Of a stretch of DNA of 64,000 bases, positions 21,111 to 34,866 are shown one piece after another. The position numbers and the translations under genes are program-made. The notes under the pieces are model-generated. The model saw only the letters and a list, made by a program, of their open reading frames with translations, had not been told where the DNA came from and made no database searches. The first letter of the stretch is position 1, and each line of letters starts with the position of its first letter. The stretch is from Spirochaetes bacterium GWE1_32_154. GTDB lineage: Bacteria; Spirochaetota; GWE2-31-10. Where the stretch lies: contig MIAY01000034.1 of assembly GCA_001829315.1 (NCBI GenBank), forward strand, positions 28,845 through 92,844, in the 5' to 3' direction.

Positions 21111-21775
21111 AAATAAAACACATATGTGCAGGTGGACAAAAAGACAGTCTTCTCATATTTTTTTGCGGTTTTGCTTTGCATCCTGATTCGTTTACCTTTT
21201 TAAAAACCGGGAAATCAGATGTCCTTTTTATATATCACTATCAGTCTGTTCACTATGAAAAAATTGAAGAAATAGCAGCAGATTATAATGAATTAAAAGT
21301 AACAGGATATTCATTCGGATGTTTTATCGCAGCACATTTTATTGAAACAGCTTCAAATCTGATACGGAACAGGATAAAAAAATATACAATTATTAATGGC
21401 ACATATGTGCCTCTATCAAAACAATATGGAATACCGGAAAAAATATTTGAGTTAACAGTCAAAAACATTGAATCAAATGGAATCCGTGGCTTTTTTACAA
21501 ATATTTTTGATAATGAAAATGATAAAAATCGATTTCTACAAACAGCAGAGCAACCATATAGAACATATTGTGAAGAATTAGTATTTTTTAAACACCTTTT
21601 TCAGACGATTCAATTAAAAAATGTTGTACCTGACATTGCAATAATCAGCACTAATGATCGAATATTCAGTATGAAAAATCAGCTATCCTACTGGTCTTTT
21701 CAAAATGTAAAAATACAACACGTGGATACCGGACATTTTCCTTTTTATAGTTTTCAATCCTGGGACGAATTATGA
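21107..21775 (+). CDS. bioG: Pimeloyl-ACP methyl ester esterase BioG
   Basis: The 222-residue protein is an alpha/beta hydrolase of the DUF452/BioG family, with the nucleophile elbow VTGYSFGCFIA (Ser in G-Y-S-F-G), a probable oxyanion region LIFFCGFALHPDSF, a C-terminal Asp (ISTNDRIFS) and His (DTGHFPF). It removes the methyl group that BioC puts on the growing chain, releasing pimeloyl-ACP; BioG replaces the BioH of E. coli. It overlaps bioF and bioC by 4 bases each, and the order bioF-bioG-bioC fits this role. Confidence 0.88.
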   Translation: MKIKHICAGGQKDSLLIFFCGFALHPDSFTFLKTGKSDVLFIYHYQSVHYEKIEEIAADYNELKVTGYSFGCFIAAHFIETASNLIRNRIKKYTIINGTYVPLSKQYGIPEKIFELTVKNIESNGIRGFFTNIFDNENDKNRFLQTAEQPYRTYCEELVFFKHLFQTIQLKNVVPDIAIISTNDRIFSMKNQLSYWSFQNVKIQHVDTGHFPFYSFQSWDEL

Positions 21776-22518
21776 ATAAAACATTAATCTCCAGTCGTTT
21801 TAATAAATCGTTCATCACCTATGATAAACAGGCTGTAATTCAGTTCAAAACTGCACAGAAAATGATTTTTGAACTTAAAAAACAAAACAGAGAGTTTGCA
21901 ACAATATTCGAAATCGGTGCAGGAACCGGAATACTGACAGGCTTAATTTATAATGAATTGAAACCGGAATATTTGTATGTCAATGATATATGTGAAAACT
22001 CAAAAGTTGTCATTGAAAGCCGGTTTGCTGTAACAAAGTTTATTCAGGGTGATATTGAATCAGCTGAAGTCCCCGGGCAATGCAGTTTAATTATTTCAAA
22101 TGCAGTTTTTCAATGGCTTGATGATTTGCCAAAGTTATTTGAAAAATTATCAAATTCATTAACTAATGACGGGATATTCGCATTTTCAACTTTTGGAGTA
22201 CGCAATTATAATGAAGTCAGATACTTTGGATATGGTTTAGATAGTTATATTGAAATAGCCGTAATGACTGAATATTTACAACCTTTTTTTGATGTCATTT
22301 CAATTTCCGAGTCAATTGAAACAATGTGGTTTAATTCATCAGGTGATGTTTTTAAACATATAAGTGCAACCGGAGTTAATGGAATTTCTCAACCAGTTTC
22401 TTTCGCTGCAATGAAGGCAATGCTTAAAGAGTATGAAAAGAAATTCAGTCTGAATGAAAAAATACCGCTAACATATCATCCCCAGATTTTTATTGTAAGG
22501 AAGAAAAAATGCCCGTAA
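21772..22518 (+). CDS. bioC: Malonyl-ACP O-methyltransferase
   Basis: BioC methylates malonyl-ACP with SAM, disguising it as a fatty-acid primer for pimelate assembly. The SAM-binding motif I reads IFEIGAGTGILTGLI, followed by the acidic VNDIC and motif SLIISNAVFQWLDDLPK, which is highly characteristic of BioC. The length is 248 residues. It overlaps bioG by 4 bases and bioD by 10. Confidence 0.93.
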   Translation: MNKTLISSRFNKSFITYDKQAVIQFKTAQKMIFELKKQNREFATIFEIGAGTGILTGLIYNELKPEYLYVNDICENSKVVIESRFAVTKFIQGDIESAEVPGQCSLIISNAVFQWLDDLPKLFEKLSNSLTNDGIFAFSTFGVRNYNEVRYFGYGLDSYIEIAVMTEYLQPFFDVISISESIETMWFNSSGDVFKHISATGVNGISQPVSFAAMKAMLKEYEKKFSLNEKIPLTYHPQIFIVRKKKCP

Positions 22519-23141
22519 TTTTTATAACAGGAATTGATACCGGAATTGGTAAAACTATACAAACAGGACTTCTTGCAAAAAAATTATCAGATTCAGGTAA
22601 AACGGTAATTACGATAAAACCGGTACAAACCGGATGCAGGGGAATTGCAGAAGATATTATTATTCACAGAAAAATTATGGGTATTGTTTTAACAGATGAT
22701 GATAATCGTGGTGAAACTGCCCCGTATGTTTTTGAATATCCGGCCTCCTCTCATCTATCATCACAATTAGCAGGGGTTACAATTGATATTGATGTGATTG
22801 ACGCAACAATTGAAAAGTTTTTACAGAAGTATGAATATGTATTAGTCGAAGGAAGCGGGGGGATTACATCACCGATCAATAATGATATTAATTGGGGCGA
22901 TTTTATTCGAATGAGAGGGTATGATACTATTCTTGTGAGCGGATTTCGTCTTGGCAGTATAAATCACACCGTTTTATCAATTGAATATTGCATCAGTAAC
23001 AGTATTAATATAATAGAAGTAATTTTAAATAATTACCCGGAACAGGATGGTATTATCGCAGAATCAACATCCAGATATTTACAGGAAAGGTATAAAACAA
23101 TTAAATTCCGGGTCGGAGAATACTATAAAAATAAGGAGTAA
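22509..23141 (+). CDS. bioD: Dethiobiotin synthetase
   Basis: BioD closes the ureido ring of dethiobiotin from DAPA, CO2 and ATP. The P-loop is ITGIDTGIGKT at the N-terminus, followed by the catalytic KPVQTGC and the later VEGSGGITSPIN that binds the substrate. The length of 210 residues is normal. Its start lies within the end of bioC and bioB begins 2 bases after its stop. Confidence 0.95.
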   Translation: MPVIFITGIDTGIGKTIQTGLLAKKLSDSGKTVITIKPVQTGCRGIAEDIIIHRKIMGIVLTDDDNRGETAPYVFEYPASSHLSSQLAGVTIDIDVIDATIEKFLQKYEYVLVEGSGGITSPINNDINWGDFIRMRGYDTILVSGFRLGSINHTVLSIEYCISNSINIIEVILNNYPEQDGIIAESTSRYLQERYKTIKFRVGEYYKNKE

Positions 23142-23143
23142 CA

Positions 23144-24124
23144 ATGAATAACCGGTATGAGAATCTAATTGAAAAAAGTTTGCATGGAGGAGAAATTATC
23201 AGAGATGACATTCAATGGATAATGGAATCAGAAGATGTTGAACTTCTTCCTTTATTATATGCTGCATTTAAAGTCCGTGAAAAGTATTTTGGAAAGAATG
23301 TGAAAATCCATATTTTGAATAATGTAAAAAGTGGTAATTGTTCAGAAAATTGTCATTATTGTGCTCAGTCACATGAGGCTGATAATGAAATAGAAAAATA
23401 TCCTGTGAAAACGAGGGAAGAAATTATACAGGGGGCTTGCGATGCGACTAATGGCGGGGCGTTTCGATATTGTATGGTTTTTTCAGGCAGCCGTCAGAGT
23501 CCTGCGAATATCGATTTTATTTGTGATGTTGTTAGTGAAATTAAAGAAAAATATTCAATTGAAACCTGTGTTTCTGCCGGATTTATTGAAGAGGGCGATA
23601 TTATCAGGTTGAAACAGGCAGGCGTTGACAGGTATAACCATAATCTCAATACCAGTGAATTTCATTATGGGCAGATATGTACAAGTCATTCCTATAAGGA
23701 CAGGTATAATACAATTGTTATGGCACACAAATACGGACTTGATATCTGCAGCGGAATAATTGCCGGAATGGGTGAGTCATTAGACGATATATTTTCTATT
23801 ATAAGGGATTTAAAGGCGGTGAAAGTTAAGTCAGTTCCTGTTAACTTTTTTATACCAATTGAGGGACATCGGATTTCACAGTATCAGACATTAACACCTG
23901 AATATTGTCTTAAACTTTTGTCTGTTTTCAGATTTGCATTACCGGATGTAGAAATCAGATGTGCAGGCGGGCGGGAATATCATTTACGTTCTATGCAGGC
24001 ATTATCATTGTATCCGGCAAATTCAATTTTTGCACAGGGGTATTTGACAACCGGCGGGGATGGTATTGATGAAGCAAAACGAATGGTAACTGACGCAGGT
24101 TTTACAGTCGAACTATCAGATTGA
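23144..24124 (+). CDS. bioB: Biotin synthase
   Basis: BioB inserts sulfur into dethiobiotin by radical SAM chemistry. The 4Fe-4S-binding motif CSENCHYC is near residue 65, with the 2Fe-2S ligands expected in CMVFSG and CVSAGF, and the Arg in IRCAGGRE. YNHNLNTSEFHY is the substrate-site signature. The length is 326 residues. It is the last gene of the bio operon; no strong terminator hairpin is visible after it. Confidence 0.97.
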   Translation: MNNRYENLIEKSLHGGEIIRDDIQWIMESEDVELLPLLYAAFKVREKYFGKNVKIHILNNVKSGNCSENCHYCAQSHEADNEIEKYPVKTREEIIQGACDATNGGAFRYCMVFSGSRQSPANIDFICDVVSEIKEKYSIETCVSAGFIEEGDIIRLKQAGVDRYNHNLNTSEFHYGQICTSHSYKDRYNTIVMAHKYGLDICSGIIAGMGESLDDIFSIIRDLKAVKVKSVPVNFFIPIEGHRISQYQTLTPEYCLKLLSVFRFALPDVEIRCAGGREYHLRSMQALSLYPANSIFAQGYLTTGGDGIDEAKRMVTDAGFTVELSD

Positions 24125-25332: not shown

Positions 25333-25360
25333 AAACACCGGGCTTATAAACCCGGTGTTT
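25333..25360. terminator. Bidirectional terminator between yjdM and the esterase gene
   Basis: A 10-bp perfect stem AAACACCGGG/CCCGGTGTTT with an 8-base loop lies between two convergent genes, with A-rich sequence on one side and T-rich on the other, so it can serve both strands. Confidence 0.85.
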
Positions 25361-25373
25361 GAATATTTTAAAA

Positions 25374-26210
25374 CTACCTGAGAGTCAACGACTGGTTAAA
25401 AAGCCAGTCAAATAAAGCCTCGTCTTTATAGCATGGACCGGGGTCATGCCCGACACCCTGATATTCACTATATTTGACAATATCAACGCCGTCTTTACGA
25501 AGCGTTTTTGTTTCGCGGGAAAAACCGGTACTATTGTCTGTTGTAATAGTTTCAATTGCACCTGAGTTTGTCGTATGATTTTTTAGTTTTGTATATGTTT
25601 CTCGAGCAACATCAACTCGCACCTGGGTATCATTAAGACCAATATGATACCAGATGGACGTTTTTGATACGGCCTGGTCTGCTAATGTTGACTCACTTTG
25701 GCCGGCAACGCGAATAATTGCTGCAAAAAGTTTTTCTTTTGACAGCATCCCCCGAACAACTTTGAAACTGCCTGAACCACCCATGGAAAAATCGGTAAGA
25801 TAGATGCGGTTTGTATCAATACGATAGTTTGATTTAACTGCATTGTCTATTAGTTCAGCAAGAAAAGCACCATCAGTTTCAGACGATTTATTATTGAAAT
25901 CAAGAAAAAATGCAGGATATTTTTTACCGGCTTTCTGACTGACTGTCGTACCTTCGCCCCAGCTTCCGACTACCACAAGCGGGTAATTGCGGGTTGCATT
26001 TGTTGTTCGTGCATAGCCCCAGGGGGTTGTCAGAGTTATTTCCTGTATAGTTTCAGTTACCGGTGCATCAGTTTCAGTAAAGGTTTCCGCCGGGTTAAAG
26101 AGAGTTTTAGCATTTGCTGGTGTTTCATTGCTTATTTGTTCGGTACATGATGAGAGAGACAATGTGATAAGAACAAGTGCGGTTTGTAAAAATTTAAGTG
26201 TATTTTTCAT
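25374..26210 (-). CDS. Lipoprotein esterase of the alpha/beta-hydrolase fold
   Basis: A lipobox signal peptide (LITLSLSSC) precedes a hydrolase domain similar to PHB-depolymerase-like/feruloyl esterases. The nucleophile elbow is LTDFSMGGSGSF, the Asp is in WYHIGLNDTQV, and the His in YQGVGHDPG. It should be anchored in a membrane and hydrolyse an extracytoplasmic ester; the substrate is unknown. The gene starts 27 bases after the TolB-like protein gene and is probably the last gene of the sigma-factor operon, ended by the terminator at 25333. Confidence 0.78.
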   Translation of the reverse strand: MKNTLKFLQTALVLITLSLSSCTEQISNETPANAKTLFNPAETFTETDAPVTETIQEITLTTPWGYARTTNATRNYPLVVVGSWGEGTTVSQKAGKKYPAFFLDFNNKSSETDGAFLAELIDNAVKSNYRIDTNRIYLTDFSMGGSGSFKVVRGMLSKEKLFAAIIRVAGQSESTLADQAVSKTSIWYHIGLNDTQVRVDVARETYTKLKNHTTNSGAIETITTDNSTGFSRETKTLRKDGVDIVKYSEYQGVGHDPGPCYKDEALFDWLFNQSLTLR

Positions 26211-26237
26211 AGGTGTCCTTTTTTTTCATAAATATTT

Positions 26238-27185
26238 TTATAATACTCTAATTTCAAAAGAAAAGTTAACTTTTCTTCTATAATTCAAAGCAATATCATT
26301 TCGAGTGATATGTTTTTTATAATAAATAATACTATCAATAATCGACACTGTCCATAGAATAAGTGAAACTGAAATGCCGCCTGTTAATAATCCGTAAAAG
26401 ATATAATCCATTCCATTATAAATATTCTGCTGTATTATTTCTGCTTCAGCCTGATCTGTTGAATTACTTCGGCGATATTCCTCTGCTTTAACCAGATAGT
26501 AATTATAATAGTACATAGTTGAAGCAATCGGAGCGCTTATCATAGTCAGCGTTGCAATAGAAAAAAATGCTATGTAAACAGACGATTTTACGTATTGTTT
26601 TGTATAAATAGCAATTCCTGATGGGGCAAAACAAAGGGGAAATAAGTTTTTATCAATTGCGGTTAATTTTTCCGGTTTTGTATATTCTTCTTTCGGAACT
26701 TCCTGGTATGAGCTGATACCTGTTTCAATTTTTTTGTCAGTGCATACTTCTATTATTTGTATGGCAATTTTTTCGATAGTGTTAAATGAGAGAATACCTC
26801 CGGCTCCTGACATCATTTCGTTGTGAATAACAGTTCCTTTTTGCACATCAGTGATATAAAAACGTATAAAGATTTCATCATTCTCAACGTAATATTCACC
26901 GGAAATAATTTTTTCAATGCCGAAAGTGGCAGCGGTAATTATGCTTTGATTTACCGCTTGTTTATTATTTATACAATATTCTTTGTATGCGGTGTCAATA
27001 CTATAACCGTTTGAAAATGTAAGATACCCTGTGAGAGAATTCTGAATTAACTCATCATAAAAATTGTATTCCTCTGAACTTTTGTTTTCAAATGGAAAAA
27101 GTGCGATTTTTTTCTCTGAATAGATTGAAACGGGAAAAATGAAAAAGAAAAATGTAATTACTGATAACCGGAGTAACATTTTCAT
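26238..27185 (-). CDS. TolB-like N-domain protein with C-terminal membrane helices
   Basis: A signal sequence is followed by KKIALFPFENKSSEEYNFYD, the opening strand pattern of TolB/CsgG-like amino-terminal domains that sense or assemble at the envelope. The domain continues to about residue 155, then a linker and four or so hydrophobic segments (residues 195-300). The track start is a TTG at 27203 inside the upstream gene; the ATG at 27185 behind GGA is preferred. It is in one operon with the FecR/propeller gene, whose stop lies 10 bases upstream. Function is not known. Confidence 0.65.
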   Translation of the reverse strand: MKMLLRLSVITFFFFIFPVSIYSEKKIALFPFENKSSEEYNFYDELIQNSLTGYLTFSNGYSIDTAYKEYCINNKQAVNQSIITAATFGIEKIISGEYYVENDEIFIRFYITDVQKGTVIHNEMMSGAGGILSFNTIEKIAIQIIEVCTDKKIETGISSYQEVPKEEYTKPEKLTAIDKNLFPLCFAPSGIAIYTKQYVKSSVYIAFFSIATLTMISAPIASTMYYYNYYLVKAEEYRRSNSTDQAEAEIIQQNIYNGMDYIFYGLLTGGISVSLILWTVSIIDSIIYYKKHITRNDIALNYRRKVNFSFEIRVL

Positions 27186-27195
27186 TAGGTGTCCA

Positions 27196-28974
27196 TTATT
27201 CAATACCCATAATCTCTATATCACCATTTCTGCTTCCTGCAAATAATTTATTATCGAAATAGTGGATTTTTGTAACAGGTGAAACCAATGTTGTGTTTAG
27301 TTTTTTTGTTATACTAAGATCTTTTTTGTTGATAATGTATATTGTCGCCAGAGAGTCAGTTATTGCGATTGATTCCGGAAGTAAAGTAAAAACGCCTTGA
27401 TTGATAGCATTACGTTTGTTATTTGCAATCAGAATACTGTGTATTACACTGAAATCTTTTGGATGTATAGAATAGAATGTTCCGTTTTCATCTGTTGTAT
27501 AGATAACTCCATTTTCAATAACCGGTTGTGATGTTATAATAAAAGGCATACGCGTTTTTATCAGAATCTTTCCTGACATATCAAGTTTATACATATTTCC
27601 CTGAAGATCTGTGGTGATAATGGTATTTTCATGGAGAATTGCTTTGAAAACTGACCGGTCAGACAGTTGATATTTCCATTGTGGTTTACCATCCCGTGAA
27701 AATAAACCTATAGTTTTATCGGCAATTGAAGTGATAATGAAATTATTATCTGAAACTATCGGGGAAAGTGGTTCTGTAATGGTAATAAACGGTTTTGATT
27801 CAACAGTTTTCTTTTGAAAATTAAAAAGATAAATTCCCTTATTTAAAGGTAAATAAACATCAGATTCAATAACAGAAATGGTATTACCAAAAAGTATCGC
27901 GCCATCCATGATAATTTGTGAGGTTTCATTACCATTTTTCATGTTGAGTGTAATAAACTTTTTATCCGTTGAAGAAATAAAAAGTGAATTGTTGAATATC
28001 ACCGGTAATGACATAAAGCGGATGCCTGTTGTATTACCGTATATTTTCTTCCATATTGTAGAACCATTTGTATCAAGCATTGTAATGTGAGATTCAGATT
28101 GAGCAATTATTGTATTTTGATACGGTATAAAACCAAGAATTGCATTGTTTTTTTCGTTGCTGCCGTTTTTTATGATTTTTCTAAAAGGTGATTTTTCTGA
28201 AATGGGACTATTCTGTATATTTGTTTTGGGAATTTCAGCAATTTTTATCATACTATCGGTTATAAACCCATTTAAATCTGCTTTTATCACTTCACCGGCG
28301 TGTATTCGTATTATATCGCGGGATATTTTATGGGTGATTGACAGAACACCTTCTGTAAGTGTGACCGTTGAGAGAGAGGGCGCTTTATGATTAACTTCAA
28401 ATTGTGTTCCGATTACTTCAATAATTAAGAGAGGTGTATTAACATAAAATGGTATGTTATTTTTCTTATGTATTTGAAAAGTTGCCGTTCCTTTTTCAAC
28501 TGCAACCTTGTAATGACCGGTTTTCGTTTCTATTGAGTCTATACGAATCTCTGTTTCATTGTTTATTGTAATAATTCCTCTTTCGTTGAGGTCTAATGAA
28601 CATTCTGATATTTTGCCGGTGAAAATTATATCGTCTTTTTTGATAGAGGTTGTGGATGAAATCAATCGGGTATTATTTTCTCTGACATAATATACCTGAT
28701 TATTAATTGATGAAATTGATACCGGATTATTCACCAAAGATATTTTCTGATAGATAAAAGTGACTATAAAAAACAATAATGATACTGAAATAATTGCCGG
28801 AATTGTTCGAAATATGAAGTGAAAGTGGCTGTATGTATCGGTTTTTTTATAAGCACCATTACGGATTCTGGATAAAAAAGTGTAATCTGTCTTTTCTGAT
28901 GGATTTTCACTACTTTTTCCGGTGATATATTTTTCAAAATCGTTTTCAGATATATTTTCATACCATTTTTTCAT
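27196..28974 (-). CDS. FecR-domain protein with PQQ-like beta-propeller
   Basis: The protein has a short cytoplasmic N-terminus of about 55 residues, one membrane helix (PAIISVSLLFFIVTFIYQ), and a FecR-like periplasmic domain (residues about 90-235; GTATFQIHKKNNIPFYVNTP, VIGTQFEV). After it comes a beta-propeller of PQQ/WD-like blades (IFNNSLFISSTDKKFITLNM, GVIYTTDENGTFYSIHPKD). It follows the ECF sigma gene with stop and ribosome site overlapping (TAGGGG), so translation is coupled. FecR proteins normally relay envelope signals to an ECF factor; here the propeller could be the sensor. ATG 28974 is chosen over GTG 28980 by spacing. Confidence 0.8.
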   Translation of the reverse strand: MKKWYENISENDFEKYITGKSSENPSEKTDYTFLSRIRNGAYKKTDTYSHFHFIFRTIPAIISVSLLFFIVTFIYQKISLVNNPVSISSINNQVYYVRENNTRLISSTTSIKKDDIIFTGKISECSLDLNERGIITINNETEIRIDSIETKTGHYKVAVEKGTATFQIHKKNNIPFYVNTPLLIIEVIGTQFEVNHKAPSLSTVTLTEGVLSITHKISRDIIRIHAGEVIKADLNGFITDSMIKIAEIPKTNIQNSPISEKSPFRKIIKNGSNEKNNAILGFIPYQNTIIAQSESHITMLDTNGSTIWKKIYGNTTGIRFMSLPVIFNNSLFISSTDKKFITLNMKNGNETSQIIMDGAILFGNTISVIESDVYLPLNKGIYLFNFQKKTVESKPFITITEPLSPIVSDNNFIITSIADKTIGLFSRDGKPQWKYQLSDRSVFKAILHENTIITTDLQGNMYKLDMSGKILIKTRMPFIITSQPVIENGVIYTTDENGTFYSIHPKDFSVIHSILIANNKRNAINQGVFTLLPESIAITDSLATIYIINKKDLSITKKLNTTLVSPVTKIHYFDNKLFAGSRNGDIEIMGIE

Positions 28975-28982
28975 ATTCACCC

Positions 28983-29555
28983 CTATCGCTCCATTATGGA
29001 TTTTATTTCTTTCTTTAATGTGTTTCTTGCTCTATATAAAAGCCCTTCAGTTTCACGCTCATTTTTCATTATAATGGTACTGATTTCCAGTACAGATTTT
29101 TTTTCAATATATTTTAATGTCAGAACCTGTTTGTACATATCTTTAAGATTTTCCATGGCACAATTAAACGCCAGCTCCTTTTCCTGTTCAATAACAATTC
29201 CGGGTGAAGTATCTTCCTGATATTCTGTATGGGTCATTATCAGCATGTTATTTATTTTCTCATCACGGATATTTTTTCTGACAAAATCAATATACCGTCT
29301 GTGAGCTATTTTTATAAGCCATGACCGTATATTGGTGTTATTTTTGAGAGTTCCCACAGAGCTCAATGCAGAGTGAAATGTTTCACTGAATATATCTTCT
29401 GCAAGTTCTTTATTACCGCGGGTTTTTAAAAAGATGAAGCGAAATATATTCGATTTATAATCAATGTATAATTTCTCAAGCATGGCAGTATCCCCGTTTT
29501 TTAACTTTTCAAAATCATCGTTACTCCAGCCGATTATTGCCATTAAAATAAACAT
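28983..29555 (-). CDS. ECF-type RNA polymerase sigma factor
   Basis: The protein has sigma region 2 (LEKLYIDYKSNIFRFIFLKT, ELAEDIFSETFHSAL, IRSWLIKIAHRRYIDFVRK) and sigma region 4 (MENLKDMYKQVLTLKYIEKK, EISTIIMKNERETEGLLYRA). It directs transcription of an envelope-related regulon. The start is uncertain: ATG 29555 lies 9 bases after GGAG; the track start is 29570, and ATG 29543 is also possible. No zinc-finger anti-sigma follows; the next gene, a FecR-like membrane protein, likely takes that role. Confidence 0.88.
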   Translation of the reverse strand: MFILMAIIGWSNDDFEKLKNGDTAMLEKLYIDYKSNIFRFIFLKTRGNKELAEDIFSETFHSALSSVGTLKNNTNIRSWLIKIAHRRYIDFVRKNIRDEKINNMLIMTHTEYQEDTSPGIVIEQEKELAFNCAMENLKDMYKQVLTLKYIEKKSVLEISTIIMKNERETEGLLYRARNTLKKEIKSIMER

Positions 29556-29739
29556 TACTGATGTCTCCATTTTAATATCGTTTTGTTTTGTTATATCACA
29601 CGAAAAAACATTTTTAATACGATTTTTACAATAACAGGAATATACTCAAAAAGCAATCTATAGTTAAATGTCTTAAAATATGCACGGTGAGGGTAAGTGA
29701 AGATCGTTCGAAATAGGTTTATACCGGAAAGATTGACAT

Positions 29740-31563
29740 TTACTGATAGTACTCAATTGCTCCCGGGTCGCTTTGGGGTCTATCATCAGAATCCCCGTCA
29801 AAAATTCTTTGTTTTCTAAAATAGTCATATATATATTGTTTATCATTAGTCCCTTTATCGATAATTTCAGAAGCACTAACCGGTGTGTAATCTTTAGCCG
29901 TTACCGGTGCCATGAGTGAAAATATCTGACTTTTTCCTGCAAAATTAGTAAATGATGAATTATTCTGTCCATCATCATCAACAGACTGATAACTGATAGA
30001 ATTGGGGAAATAGAAAACATTGTTAAAAACAACATTGTTTCCCGATTCGATACCGAATTGATTATAAAAAATAACACCGGTTACAATACTATTCTCATCA
30101 TTAACTGATGTGCAGGAAAATGTATTATGATAGATTTGTATGTTTGATGGGGAATTTAAAACAATACCGTTATTCGATATTGTAATGGCTGTTTTTATTG
30201 TTGAAAGTGAGTAGTCTCCGATATTATTTCTTACGGTTATATTTTTACCATTGATACTTATAAGATTGTTTGTATAACTTCTGCTTACGATATGATTATT
30301 TTCAATCAGACAGTTTTGAATTATTTCATACGATGTATTATCGCCGGGTGAAAGAGTTATAATATTTCGTGCATTGGATGTTATCACATTATCCGATATT
30401 ATAATATGAGATGAAATCCGCTGGTCGTTGCTGAATTGTGTTGTTTTAATCGATGTATTTGCAAAAATTGCTAATGTACCATTATTAGCACCTGATGAAT
30501 TAATTATATTATGCTGAATTAAACCTTTGTTAAGATAAGTAAATACAATCTCAGCAGCATTATTGTCATCTGAAATGGTATTTCCAATAAGACTTATATA
30601 ATTACCGCCACAATATAATTCAAACGAATTATTAAAGTGGTTAAAAGTACATTCTGCAATTGTTATCATTTCATGGGGAGGTGTTTTAAAATAGTCTGTT
30701 GTATCGGTAGAAAAGAATAATTCTCCCTGTTGATTATTGAAATCAAGTCGGTATAAAAGAAGTTCTTTAATGTTCAGTCCGCTGTCAAAAACTCTACCTG
30801 TTGTTTTTTGAAATTGAAGGTCAGCTATTCGCCAATCTTTTGTTGCGTTATTCATTGAAGTGAAATAAAAAAGATACCCTGTATTACTTGAGATTATTAA
30901 CGGTTTTTCGCCACTGCCGTATGCACCGATATGTCCCGGTCCTTCACTATCGAGTGAAAACTGTGACGAAGAGGTAAATGTTTTTCCCCGATGAAAAAGT
31001 ATTCTTTTTCCTTTTTGGATATAAGGGAAGGCTGCATCAAAACTGTTTGTAACTATGTTAATTGAACCGGGCGGGGATTCTGAGAAATCGCCATCGGGAT
31101 CAAAGCATATTGTATTGTCACCGGAAAATACAATATCAGGGTTAGTCACCGTGATAATTTTTTCTGAATTGATCGTTGTTCCATCCGGTTGTATTGCTTT
31201 AACCGTTACGTGATAAACACCCGGATTGTCAAATATATGAACAGCAAGCGGCCCGTAACTGCTATTTCTGCTTTGTGCGGTACTCGTAAAAACACCTGAA
31301 TTAACATCATCAAAATCCCATAAAATACTGTAATTTTCAAATGCCGGATTATAGAAATTCTCACGATCTTCGCTTGTATCCGGTGTGATTTCTTTTATTC
31401 CAAAAAATACAGAAAGAGGAGCAACACCGGTATCGGTATTAGTGTCTATCGTAAAGTTTTTATATGATGAGAGATCTACTCTCGGTAGAATACCCGAACA
31501 TGATGATAATAGAAAAAATGTCAGTGAGTAGAAGATTGCCGTTTTTTTTATATAATAGTGCAA
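29740..31563 (-). CDS. Lipoprotein with PKD domain and right-handed beta-helix
   Basis: A lipobox (LTFFLLSSC) precedes a PKD domain (ILWDFDDVNSG... HIFDNPGVYHVTVKAI) at about residues 35-140, then a long right-handed parallel beta-helix region with many N-rich turns (LIQHNIINSSGANNGTLAIF, CLIENNHIVSRSYTNNLISI). The closing segment 'DRPQSDPGAIEYYQ' is usual for such repeat proteins. It is a surface or periplasmic protein that may bind or cleave a polysaccharide; no catalytic residues are evident. Confidence 0.82.
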   Translation of the reverse strand: MHYYIKKTAIFYSLTFFLLSSCSGILPRVDLSSYKNFTIDTNTDTGVAPLSVFFGIKEITPDTSEDRENFYNPAFENYSILWDFDDVNSGVFTSTAQSRNSSYGPLAVHIFDNPGVYHVTVKAIQPDGTTINSEKIITVTNPDIVFSGDNTICFDPDGDFSESPPGSINIVTNSFDAAFPYIQKGKRILFHRGKTFTSSSQFSLDSEGPGHIGAYGSGEKPLIISSNTGYLFYFTSMNNATKDWRIADLQFQKTTGRVFDSGLNIKELLLYRLDFNNQQGELFFSTDTTDYFKTPPHEMITIAECTFNHFNNSFELYCGGNYISLIGNTISDDNNAAEIVFTYLNKGLIQHNIINSSGANNGTLAIFANTSIKTTQFSNDQRISSHIIISDNVITSNARNIITLSPGDNTSYEIIQNCLIENNHIVSRSYTNNLISINGKNITVRNNIGDYSLSTIKTAITISNNGIVLNSPSNIQIYHNTFSCTSVNDENSIVTGVIFYNQFGIESGNNVVFNNVFYFPNSISYQSVDDDGQNNSSFTNFAGKSQIFSLMAPVTAKDYTPVSASEIIDKGTNDKQYIYDYFRKQRIFDGDSDDRPQSDPGAIEYYQ

Positions 31564-32487: not shown

Positions 32488-34866
32488 TTATAACTTATAC
32501 TTTCCTTTAAGAATAATTTCTTTCAGAAAGTCCTTCTTTTTTAAGACCGGATAACTTGTTTTCTTCATCTTTGCAAACTTCAATTCACCAATCAGATCTT
32601 TATATGAAGATTTTGTTTTAGTCACCGTCAGTTCTTTATCATTACAGAAATACTGTGAATTAACCGTTTTCAATGTGTAAACGCTGTCACTTTCCGCATC
32701 AAATTGTGATGAATACTCATTACCCGAATCATCGGTAAAAATAAATGTAATCTGTTTAGTGCCGAGTTCTTTCGTTTGAATTGAATATGTTCCATTGGTA
32801 TGAACAAAATAAATAAAACCGTTGCCGGCTTTTTGAACAACCGATGTTTTTCCCATTTTCACAGGAAATTTTGGTTTAACCGTTATTCTGTTTTCTAAAA
32901 GTTCAGGTTTGATGCCTGCATAATTCTGGTAAAAAACACGGGCAAATTCTGCAACGCTCCAGGCCTGACTGTATGTTCCGGTTAGTTTTACCTTGCCGTT
33001 TTTTCCCGGGATAGCATCCATATTTTCAGACATAGAACCAATACAACCTTGATTTAAAATCTGATCTGCTAAATTAAGGGTGAAATCAAAAGCAAAATCC
33101 TGGTAACTATACTCAGTCATTGCGTTAACCGAAAGTCCCGCATTCCAGCCCCAAATCGTACCGTTGTGATATGCAGCATCTTTATTATACATACCGTTTT
33201 CATGAAACGGATGAAAATACGGGTCGTTTTCATCAAGACTTAATACACCATATTCAAGTTGCAATTTAGGTATCGCATTTTTAAGTATTAATGCACCGTT
33301 TTCATCAGGTATAAATCGTGAAAATGGAACGGTAATTGCCATGAACTGATTCGGCCGAATTCTTTTATCCGCTTTGCCTTCCTTGGTTATTCTGTCAAAA
33401 AGCATTGAGCCCTTTTTATTCCAGAATTTTTCAAGAAATACCGTTTTAACCTTTTCAGCTTTTTCAAACCACTCGGTAGCCAGGTCATTGTGTCCGGTTA
33501 TCTGCGCAAGTTTTGCGGATGCGTATAATTGGTTAAACCATAACGCCTGTATTTCTACAGCCCGGTTTCCCCGAGGTGACCATGGCTGCGTACCGGCGAT
33601 TTTTGCATCCATCCACGTATCGGCATCAGCGTGGGTTAACATCCCGTATTCATCAACAAAATATTTTTCCGCCCCTTCAATTGCAAGTTTTGCAACATCA
33701 AACATCGCTTTTGCATATTCAGTATCATTCGTATATTGCAAATATTCGTATGCCTCACGAATCATCCAGGGAGTTCCATCTGTAGTATTGTAAATAATGC
33801 TTTTATCCATAACCCGGTTTGGTATGCGACCGTACATTTTTTTGTCAGCTTCTTTGTGCTGATAGTCTGAGAATGTTTTCAATATCGATTTAGCTTCATT
33901 AAATCGTCCCGTTACAATTGAAGTCCCCGGTAGAGAAATGAATGTGTCTCTTCCCCAGTTTTGCTGAAACCACGGAAACCCGGCGTAAATCCCCATTCCT
34001 GAATATTTTGTGTTAATCATCGTGTTTGCTGAAATGATTGACCAGCCGAGTGCTTTGTTGAATAATTGATTCTCGGTTTGCACATAACAGTTCGATAGCA
34101 TTTCGTAGAAGAACTTTTTAGTTCTGGATGCTAATTCTGCGTATTTACCTTTATAAAGTTTTGCTTGTGCTAAAAGATTTTCTTTATTGTCACTAAAAAG
34201 AATAATCAGTTTTACTTCACCCTTACTGGTGTATTTTCCTGCATAAATCCCTGTTTTAACAAGACCTTCAGCAGGTGCGTTTTCATCTGAACTTGAAATA
34301 AGCGGAGTATACTGTGCGGTATCATATAAAACGGCACAGTACTTCATTTTATTTTTTTCATCGGTAGAAGTAAAAAGTGCTAAATTATCATTTTTGATAA
34401 TTTCGGCAGAAATCATTTCTGATTTTCGCGCATTAATAATTGACGGTATGAGTGAGTACTCACTCATTACATCCCCGCTTACTGAAATCAAAACGCCATT
34501 TTCATTCTGTAGAAGCATGAATGTCGTTTTTATATTGTCAGGAAAGTTGTAGGTTAACCCATAAGGCTGTAAAGTTGCTGTCGGCGCAACTTGTATATCA
34601 AGCAATTTTCCATTTGAATATGCACTATAGTCAGTATATGCGTTAGAATCATTTATTTTATAATCACCGTTTCGTGAACTATACGTTTTTCCAAGATAAA
34701 CCCCGTTTGTTCTGTCAGTCATAACAATTTGTCGTGAGTCACCTTTTTGAAGGGTAACATTATAATAATCAAGTAAAACATCTATTTCCGGAATGGTTAT
34801 AATGTTTTCACTAAATACGTTTATTGTCAGAATAAGTGCCAGTACAATAACAATTTTTTTTATCAT
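32488..34866 (-). CDS. Exported glycogen-debranching enzyme-like alpha-1,6-glucosidase (GH133-like)
   Basis: A cleavable signal peptide (IVIVLALILTINVFS) sends this 792-residue protein out of the cytoplasm. The catalytic (alpha/alpha)6 barrel shows the debranching-enzyme signatures GFPWFQQNWGRDTFISLPG and VEIQALWFNQLYASAK, along with DADTWMDAKIAG. The N-terminal 270 residues are a beta-sandwich typical of the family. It should release glucose at alpha-1,6 branches of starch or glycogen fragments. Export is notable because most such enzymes act on cytoplasmic glycogen. It is divergent from the solute-binding protein and near the GH31/GH13 pair. Confidence 0.9.
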   Translation of the reverse strand: MIKKIVIVLALILTINVFSENIITIPEIDVLLDYYNVTLQKGDSRQIVMTDRTNGVYLGKTYSSRNGDYKINDSNAYTDYSAYSNGKLLDIQVAPTATLQPYGLTYNFPDNIKTTFMLLQNENGVLISVSGDVMSEYSLIPSIINARKSEMISAEIIKNDNLALFTSTDEKNKMKYCAVLYDTAQYTPLISSSDENAPAEGLVKTGIYAGKYTSKGEVKLIILFSDNKENLLAQAKLYKGKYAELASRTKKFFYEMLSNCYVQTENQLFNKALGWSIISANTMINTKYSGMGIYAGFPWFQQNWGRDTFISLPGTSIVTGRFNEAKSILKTFSDYQHKEADKKMYGRIPNRVMDKSIIYNTTDGTPWMIREAYEYLQYTNDTEYAKAMFDVAKLAIEGAEKYFVDEYGMLTHADADTWMDAKIAGTQPWSPRGNRAVEIQALWFNQLYASAKLAQITGHNDLATEWFEKAEKVKTVFLEKFWNKKGSMLFDRITKEGKADKRIRPNQFMAITVPFSRFIPDENGALILKNAIPKLQLEYGVLSLDENDPYFHPFHENGMYNKDAAYHNGTIWGWNAGLSVNAMTEYSYQDFAFDFTLNLADQILNQGCIGSMSENMDAIPGKNGKVKLTGTYSQAWSVAEFARVFYQNYAGIKPELLENRITVKPKFPVKMGKTSVVQKAGNGFIYFVHTNGTYSIQTKELGTKQITFIFTDDSGNEYSSQFDAESDSVYTLKTVNSQYFCNDKELTVTKTKSSYKDLIGELKFAKMKKTSYPVLKKKDFLKEIILKGKYKL

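Follow-up and report, generated by a model that had tools for sequence, protein, structure and literature searches.

The closest described system to the locus analyzed here is the LIC12757/LIC12756 pair of Leptospira interrogans. LIC12756 is a 350 aa protein composed of an N-domain (residues 1-73), a transmembrane (TM) helix (74-93), and a periplasmic part of 257 aa (94-350) (PMC12155086, PMC13118517). Its N-domain binds and inhibits the sigma factor LIC12757 (PMC13118517), full activation requires the periplasmic part, and no Leptospira TonB receptor bears a signalling extension (PMC12155086, PMC13118517). In the E. coli model, a TonB receptor reaches FecR through its signalling domain, and the proteases acting on FecR are Prc and RseP (PMC9249621). 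Spirochaetes encode many FecR proteins and ECF factors, but in Leptospira, the only spirochaete in which the matter has been studied, no FecA-like signalling receptor has been identified.

We analyzed a 64,000-nucleotide stretch of the genome of Spirochaetes bacterium GWE1_32_154 (the window), in which an earlier note, made from the sequence alone, had singled out a group of four genes. The locus is a conserved spirochaete variant of the ECF/FecR switch in which a BamB-like propeller, the putative sensor, is fused in cis and a TolB-like gene is a conserved companion. As in the Leptospira pair, a spirochaete ECF factor is combined with a FecR-like regulator consisting of a cytoplasmic N-domain, one TM helix, and a periplasmic part, and no receptor with a signalling extension is known; LIC12756 differs in that no propeller has been reported and no TolB-like partner described, the comparison being one of published descriptions. 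The earlier note knew of no described system with this set of genes; to hold that there is none would be too strong, as LIC12757/LIC12756 is a published spirochaete ECF/FecR pair for which no FecA-like receptor has been identified, albeit without a propeller (PMC12155086, PMC13118517).

The E. coli FecI-FecR-FecA and Pseudomonas FpvR/FoxR-type systems (PMC9249621) resemble the locus in their ECF factor, single-pass FecR-domain regulator, Gly-Thr motif, and S2P protease in the genome, whereas here there is no STN-bearing TonB receptor, the N-terminal segment is unrecognisable as a FecR anti-sigma domain, a BamB-like propeller is appended, and a TolB-like partner is present. Because two defining features, the recognisable FecR N-domain and the STN receptor, are lacking, we do not class the locus in the FecI/FecR/FecA system. 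SigI/RsgI-type pairs of Clostridia work in a comparable manner, in that a transmembrane anti-sigma protein carries its sensor domain in cis; their sigma and anti-sigma families are unrelated, and their sensors are carbohydrate-binding modules and similar domains. A text search, covering literature mostly outside subscription journals, found no paper on FecR domain-containing PQQ-like propeller proteins. The in-cis BamB-like propeller, apparently present in many lineages, and the TolB-like protein, present in some, are concrete candidates for the missing input of spirochaete FecR signalling.

Operon layout and predicted products

The source genome (4.0 Mb, 43 contigs) falls in a small, deep-branching order of Spirochaetota that is known mostly from metagenomes and is referred to below as the order. 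The ORF listing of the window places four tightly packed genes on the minus strand, encoding the sigma factor, the FecR-propeller protein, the TolB-like protein, and the esterase (Table 1), much as the earlier note had described them. Intergenic gaps of 2-27 nt, with ribosome-binding-like sequences present, and the terminator at 25360-25333 are consistent with a single operon. Neither a zinc-finger anti-sigma (zf-HC2 or similar) nor a TonB receptor or Plug gene was found among the Pfam matches of the cluster, which bears out the earlier note on both counts. The shared promoter motif for which that note proposed a search was not found across six operons, no bipartite motif being present in at least five of the upstream sequences. 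Ahead of the window operon, a GAAC...CGT pair separated by 19 nt was weighed as a promoter motif and is not claimed.

Table 1. Coordinates of the operon and its features within the window. Likely start codons (ATG 29555, 28974, and 27185) were chosen by eye from ribosome-binding-like sequences.
Feature	Position	Strand	Remark
ECF sigma factor, regions 2 and 4	28983..29570	-	Likely start ATG 29555, GGAG upstream
FecR-propeller protein: N-terminal segment, TM helix, FecR domain, 8-bladed BamB-like propeller	27196..28980	-	ATG 28974 likelier start
N-terminal segment (~55 aa, before TM helix) of FecR-propeller protein, proposed sigma-binding domain	28815..28980	-	
TolB-like protein: signal peptide, TolB_N/LpoB/CsgG-fold domain, two C-terminal TM helices	26238..27203	-	ATG 27185 likelier start
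Lipoprotein with PHB-depolymerase/carboxylesterase-like fold; variable passenger gene	25374..26210	-	Weak matches, under cut-off
Intrinsic-terminator-like hairpin closing the operon	25333..25360	-	12-bp stem, 4-nt loop, T tail
Intergenic region ahead of sigma gene, expected site of operon promoter	29571..29739	-	169 bp

Several neighbouring genes were also inspected. The gene adjoining the operon upstream, also on the minus strand (29740-31563), encodes a large PKD-domain, beta-helix-like lipoprotein that could be a target of the switch. Beyond it lies an amylo-alpha-1,6-glucosidase-like protein (32488-34866, minus; GDE_C, E 1e-71), whose apparent signal peptide suggests export. Nearby genes at 21772-24124 (plus) were read by eye from their translations as biotin synthesis (BioC-like methyltransferase, BioD, BioB).

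The sigma factor is a short protein (195 aa) with only sigma regions 2 and 4, as is typical of the ECF group. It matches NCBIfam sigma70-ECF (1.2e-15) and Pfam Sigma70_r2 (2.2e-8) over cut-off and Sigma70_r4_2 slightly under cut-off (2.0e-4); SigW is its closest solved structure. It is 38-45% identical to its positional counterparts in two further genomes of the order, and a scan of the genome collection with the sigma alignment returned only two already-known loci of the order and one unrelated Bacteroidetes ECF factor.

The FecR-propeller protein, a single-pass membrane protein whose gene adjoins the ECF gene, matches Pfam FecR (PF04773, 3.9e-10) and PQQ_2 (1.7e-7), both over cut-off. Its AlphaFold model (mean pLDDT 80, pTM 0.54) comprises three short N-terminal helices of low confidence, a helix at residues 49-84 containing the TM segment, a beta-rich FecR domain at ~87-235, and a propeller at ~267-592. 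BamB, a component of outer-membrane beta-barrel assembly, is among the top structural matches of the model (4pk1, E 3.6e-17; 8orr, TM 0.75 by target length), and the propeller is of the 8-bladed PQQ type as in BamB. BamB is a separate lipoprotein, whereas the FecR domain and TM helix attach the window propeller to the inner membrane, and the protein scores 41 bits with the curated BamB model TIGR03300, whose cut-off is 285. Given the BamB-like 8-blade fold of the model, it is plausible that the propeller senses an envelope ligand. The N-terminal segment follows a pattern conserved within the order (W..NLsdnDI..yl...TD.K.L.MIRN), and a Pfam search with residues 1-85, run to an E of 10 and taking in the anti-sigma families, returned only noise.

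The TolB-like protein has no Pfam match. Although its AlphaFold model has a pLDDT of 56 overall, most blocks of the N-domain reach 70-85, and this domain matches the TolB N-domain (4r40, E 9.4e-7), LpoB, PelC, FlgT, and CsgG. The likeness is one of predicted N-domain fold: in place of the propeller that follows this domain in TolB, the protein carries two predicted C-terminal TM helices. The description of this gene in the earlier note, a TolB/CsgG-like protein with membrane helices, stands. The esterase has a lipobox-like signal sequence, and its PHB-depolymerase/carboxylesterase-type matches are weak and under cut-off in both Pfam and NCBIfam. The order's other genomes contain no relative, and the best match, 35% identical, comes from a distant spirochaete. 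We conclude that the esterase is incidental and that the slot after the TolB-like gene is variable between loci; in one other genome of the order (G004), the slot after one TolB-like gene holds a lipoprotein with an FGE domain.

Conservation of the sigma/FecR-propeller pair

At 20 non-redundant loci, drawn from at least 17 genomes and at least 11 family labels, a FecR-propeller gene has an ECF gene immediately upstream of it; the loci were gathered via FecR matches and hence form no random sample. Within the order, the arrangement of sigma, FecR-propeller, and TolB-like genes recurs in G006 and in G004, which carries three paralogous sets (the TolB-like gene of one, L096:7263-7531, is cut by a contig end); in G001 the order of genes is TolB-like, sigma, FecR-propeller. 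A full-length FecR-propeller match is absent from five of the nine genomes of the order, three of these five being only 84-86% complete. Beyond the order, an ECF gene is directly followed by a FecR-propeller gene in G019, G026, G031, G032, G042, G049, G053, G067, G088, G093, G103, G123, and G212. The conserved unit of four genes implied by the earlier note thus holds for the sigma, FecR-propeller, and TolB-like genes and fails for the esterase, which is absent from related loci; lack of conservation, which that note had named as grounds for rejecting its reading, applies to the esterase only.

Trees built from 18 sigma factors and from their FecR partners (N-terminal 270 residues) are broadly congruent. 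The main groups common to both are the order (weak in the FecR tree), G019 with G031, G053 with G026 and G212, and a group of the remaining members. The exception is G103, which has a long branch and is placed differently in the two trees.

For 56 FecR proteins of the loci collected through FecR matches, topology was scored by two features: a TM helix ahead of the FecR domain at position 30 or beyond, and an ECF gene as the immediate upstream neighbour. An internal helix occurred with an ECF neighbour in 22 proteins and without one in nine; an N-terminal helix was accompanied by an ECF gene in none of 25. The association between helix position and ECF neighbour gives a Fisher p of about 1e-8, with kinship ignored and start codons assigned mechanically, and some of the nine apparently internal helices without an ECF neighbour may be start-codon artefacts. 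All 22 sigma-adjacent FecR proteins have a segment of 50-80 residues before the TM helix. This is the result expected if the pre-TM segment were a sigma-binding (anti-sigma) domain, and it supports such a role, since the FecR proteins bearing the segment are those found beside ECF genes. A pre-TM segment together with an ECF neighbour would provide a simple rule for separating sigma-regulating from merely structural FecR proteins. The Gly-Thr motif is where FecR and FoxR self-cleave; as a sign of processing, this site was rejected, being present in all 56 FecR domains, ECF-linked or not.

The TolB-like gene is the unexpected recurrent element of the locus. At each of the six loci sampled in the order it flanks the ECF/FecR pair, on either side (upstream in G001), and in three other families a TolB-like domain closely precedes the pair. 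A TolB-domain profile built from the order's own N-domains only, applied to 557 ORFs from the collected loci, gave matches outside the order at just L036, L037, L104, L123, and L142, all beside or near sigma/FecR genes; in L036 and L037 the domain forms the C-terminal part of a 655-664 aa protein immediately upstream of the ECF gene. An independent profile-profile comparison of the TolB-like domains gave an E of 3.5e-11. A first estimate of TolB-neighbour enrichment (8/56 near against 2/443 far) was dropped as circular, the profile having contained those proteins.

Signal input and competing explanations

The genome contains a single match to the STN signalling domain, in a secretin-like protein (secretin read from sequence), and four Plug-domain receptors, none of them in the cluster. 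An S2P (RseP-type) protease is encoded at G000:C26 (Peptidase_M50, E 1.7e-54). With N-segment FecR proteins lying beside ECF genes and STN confined to the secretin, the earlier proposal of an ECF/FecR-type relay without a FecA-type receptor is upheld.

We consider it probable that the locus is an ECF-sigma/FecR transmembrane switch in which one protein is both anti-sigma factor and sensor. For sigma binding, proteolysis, autoregulation, and the nature of the signal, we infer the following course. The ~55-residue cytoplasmic tail of the FecR-propeller protein would hold the sigma factor at the inner membrane, while the periplasmic FecR domain and BamB-like propeller would read the state of the envelope, most likely through contact with a protein of the periplasm or outer membrane. 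The best candidate for such a partner, or for a co-sensor, is the TolB-like neighbour, which has a periplasmic interaction domain of its own. Binding of the signal would lay the FecR protein open to proteolysis, which the S2P intramembrane protease would finish, and either the tail-sigma complex or free sigma would then drive transcription, probably including that of its own operon. Weighing against this reading are the low-confidence model of the N-terminal segment and its lack of sequence likeness to known anti-sigma families, the nine internal-helix FecR proteins with no ECF neighbour, the abundance of TolB_N-like domains in spirochaetes, and the failure to find a promoter motif common to the operons. 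A more specific version, that the FecR-bound BamB-like propeller and the TolB-like protein form a dedicated spirochaete envelope-assembly monitor reporting outer-membrane or surface-protein assembly to the ECF factor without a TonB receptor, is speculative and on balance unlikely; if true, it would represent a receptor-free mode of FecR signalling.

The FecR-propeller protein could instead act mainly as a positive (pro-sigma) regulator, as E. coli FecR does for FecI, its tail being needed for sigma activity and not only inhibitory. N-terminal fragments of E. coli FecR activate FecI (PMC9249621), and LIC12756 of Leptospira is both an anti-sigma and a positive regulator (PMC12155086), but the sequence does not separate the two roles and the window segment lacks a match to known FecR N-domains, and we regard a mainly positive role as rather unlikely. 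It is very improbable that the locus belongs to the classical FecI/FecR/FecA type, with its TonB-dependent receptor gene at another place in the genome: the four Plug-domain receptors could supply one, yet a FecA-type relay is disfavoured because the only STN match lies in the secretin-like protein, and no receptor gene was identified in the cluster. Hardly any credence can be given to an accidental neighbourhood, in which a structural FecR-propeller envelope protein happens to lie beside an ECF gene; many spirochaete FecR proteins are indeed not beside ECF genes, but retention of the pairing over at least 11 family labels, the congruent groups, and the associated N-terminal segment contradict it.

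A different question is whether the TolB-like gene belongs to the switch at all. It may be a signalling partner, or it may be the first gene of a switch-controlled module of TolB-like and secreted proteins; this ambiguity arises because TolB_N-like domains are common, each spirochaete genome having several, and because both this genome and G004 contain ECF-free TolB-like two-helix paralogues, each with a gene for a secreted protein behind it. That it is a target or passenger drawn from such a separate module (a TolB-like two-helix gene plus a secreted esterase, FGE-like lipoprotein, kelch, or Ig-repeat protein) is a real possibility, though not the reading we favour. The ECF-free paralogues and the variable gene after the TolB-like gene speak for it; its constancy beside the pair throughout the sampled loci of the order and its recurrence in three other families speak for a partner.

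Related loci in this and other genomes

Two ECF-free loci in the window genome, L178:4695-9512 and L179:3778-6140 (contigs C31 and C36), encode a TolB-like two-helix protein followed by a secreted Ig-repeat or FGE-sulfatase-domain protein, and similar modules are present in G004 (L175, L176). At L177:1425-4614 (G004 C224), a FecR-propeller gene whose product has an N-terminal helix adjoins a TolB-like gene with no ECF match upstream, such that FecR-propeller and TolB-like genes go together even without a sigma factor. Tandem FecR-propeller genes follow an ECF gene at L045:7554-11715 and L100:3697-8135, the first product with a cytoplasmic segment and the second with an N-terminal signal-like helix only. 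A comparable ECF/FecR-propeller pair occurs in other spirochaete families (L041, L101-L103, L105, L039, and L047), those of its FecR proteins that were tested having a PEGA domain. The pair is preceded by a gene of ~118 aa (ribosomal protein L20 in L041, by Pfam) and one encoding a protein of 262-285 aa. The latter looks like an outer-membrane barrel and is thus another recurrent candidate partner.
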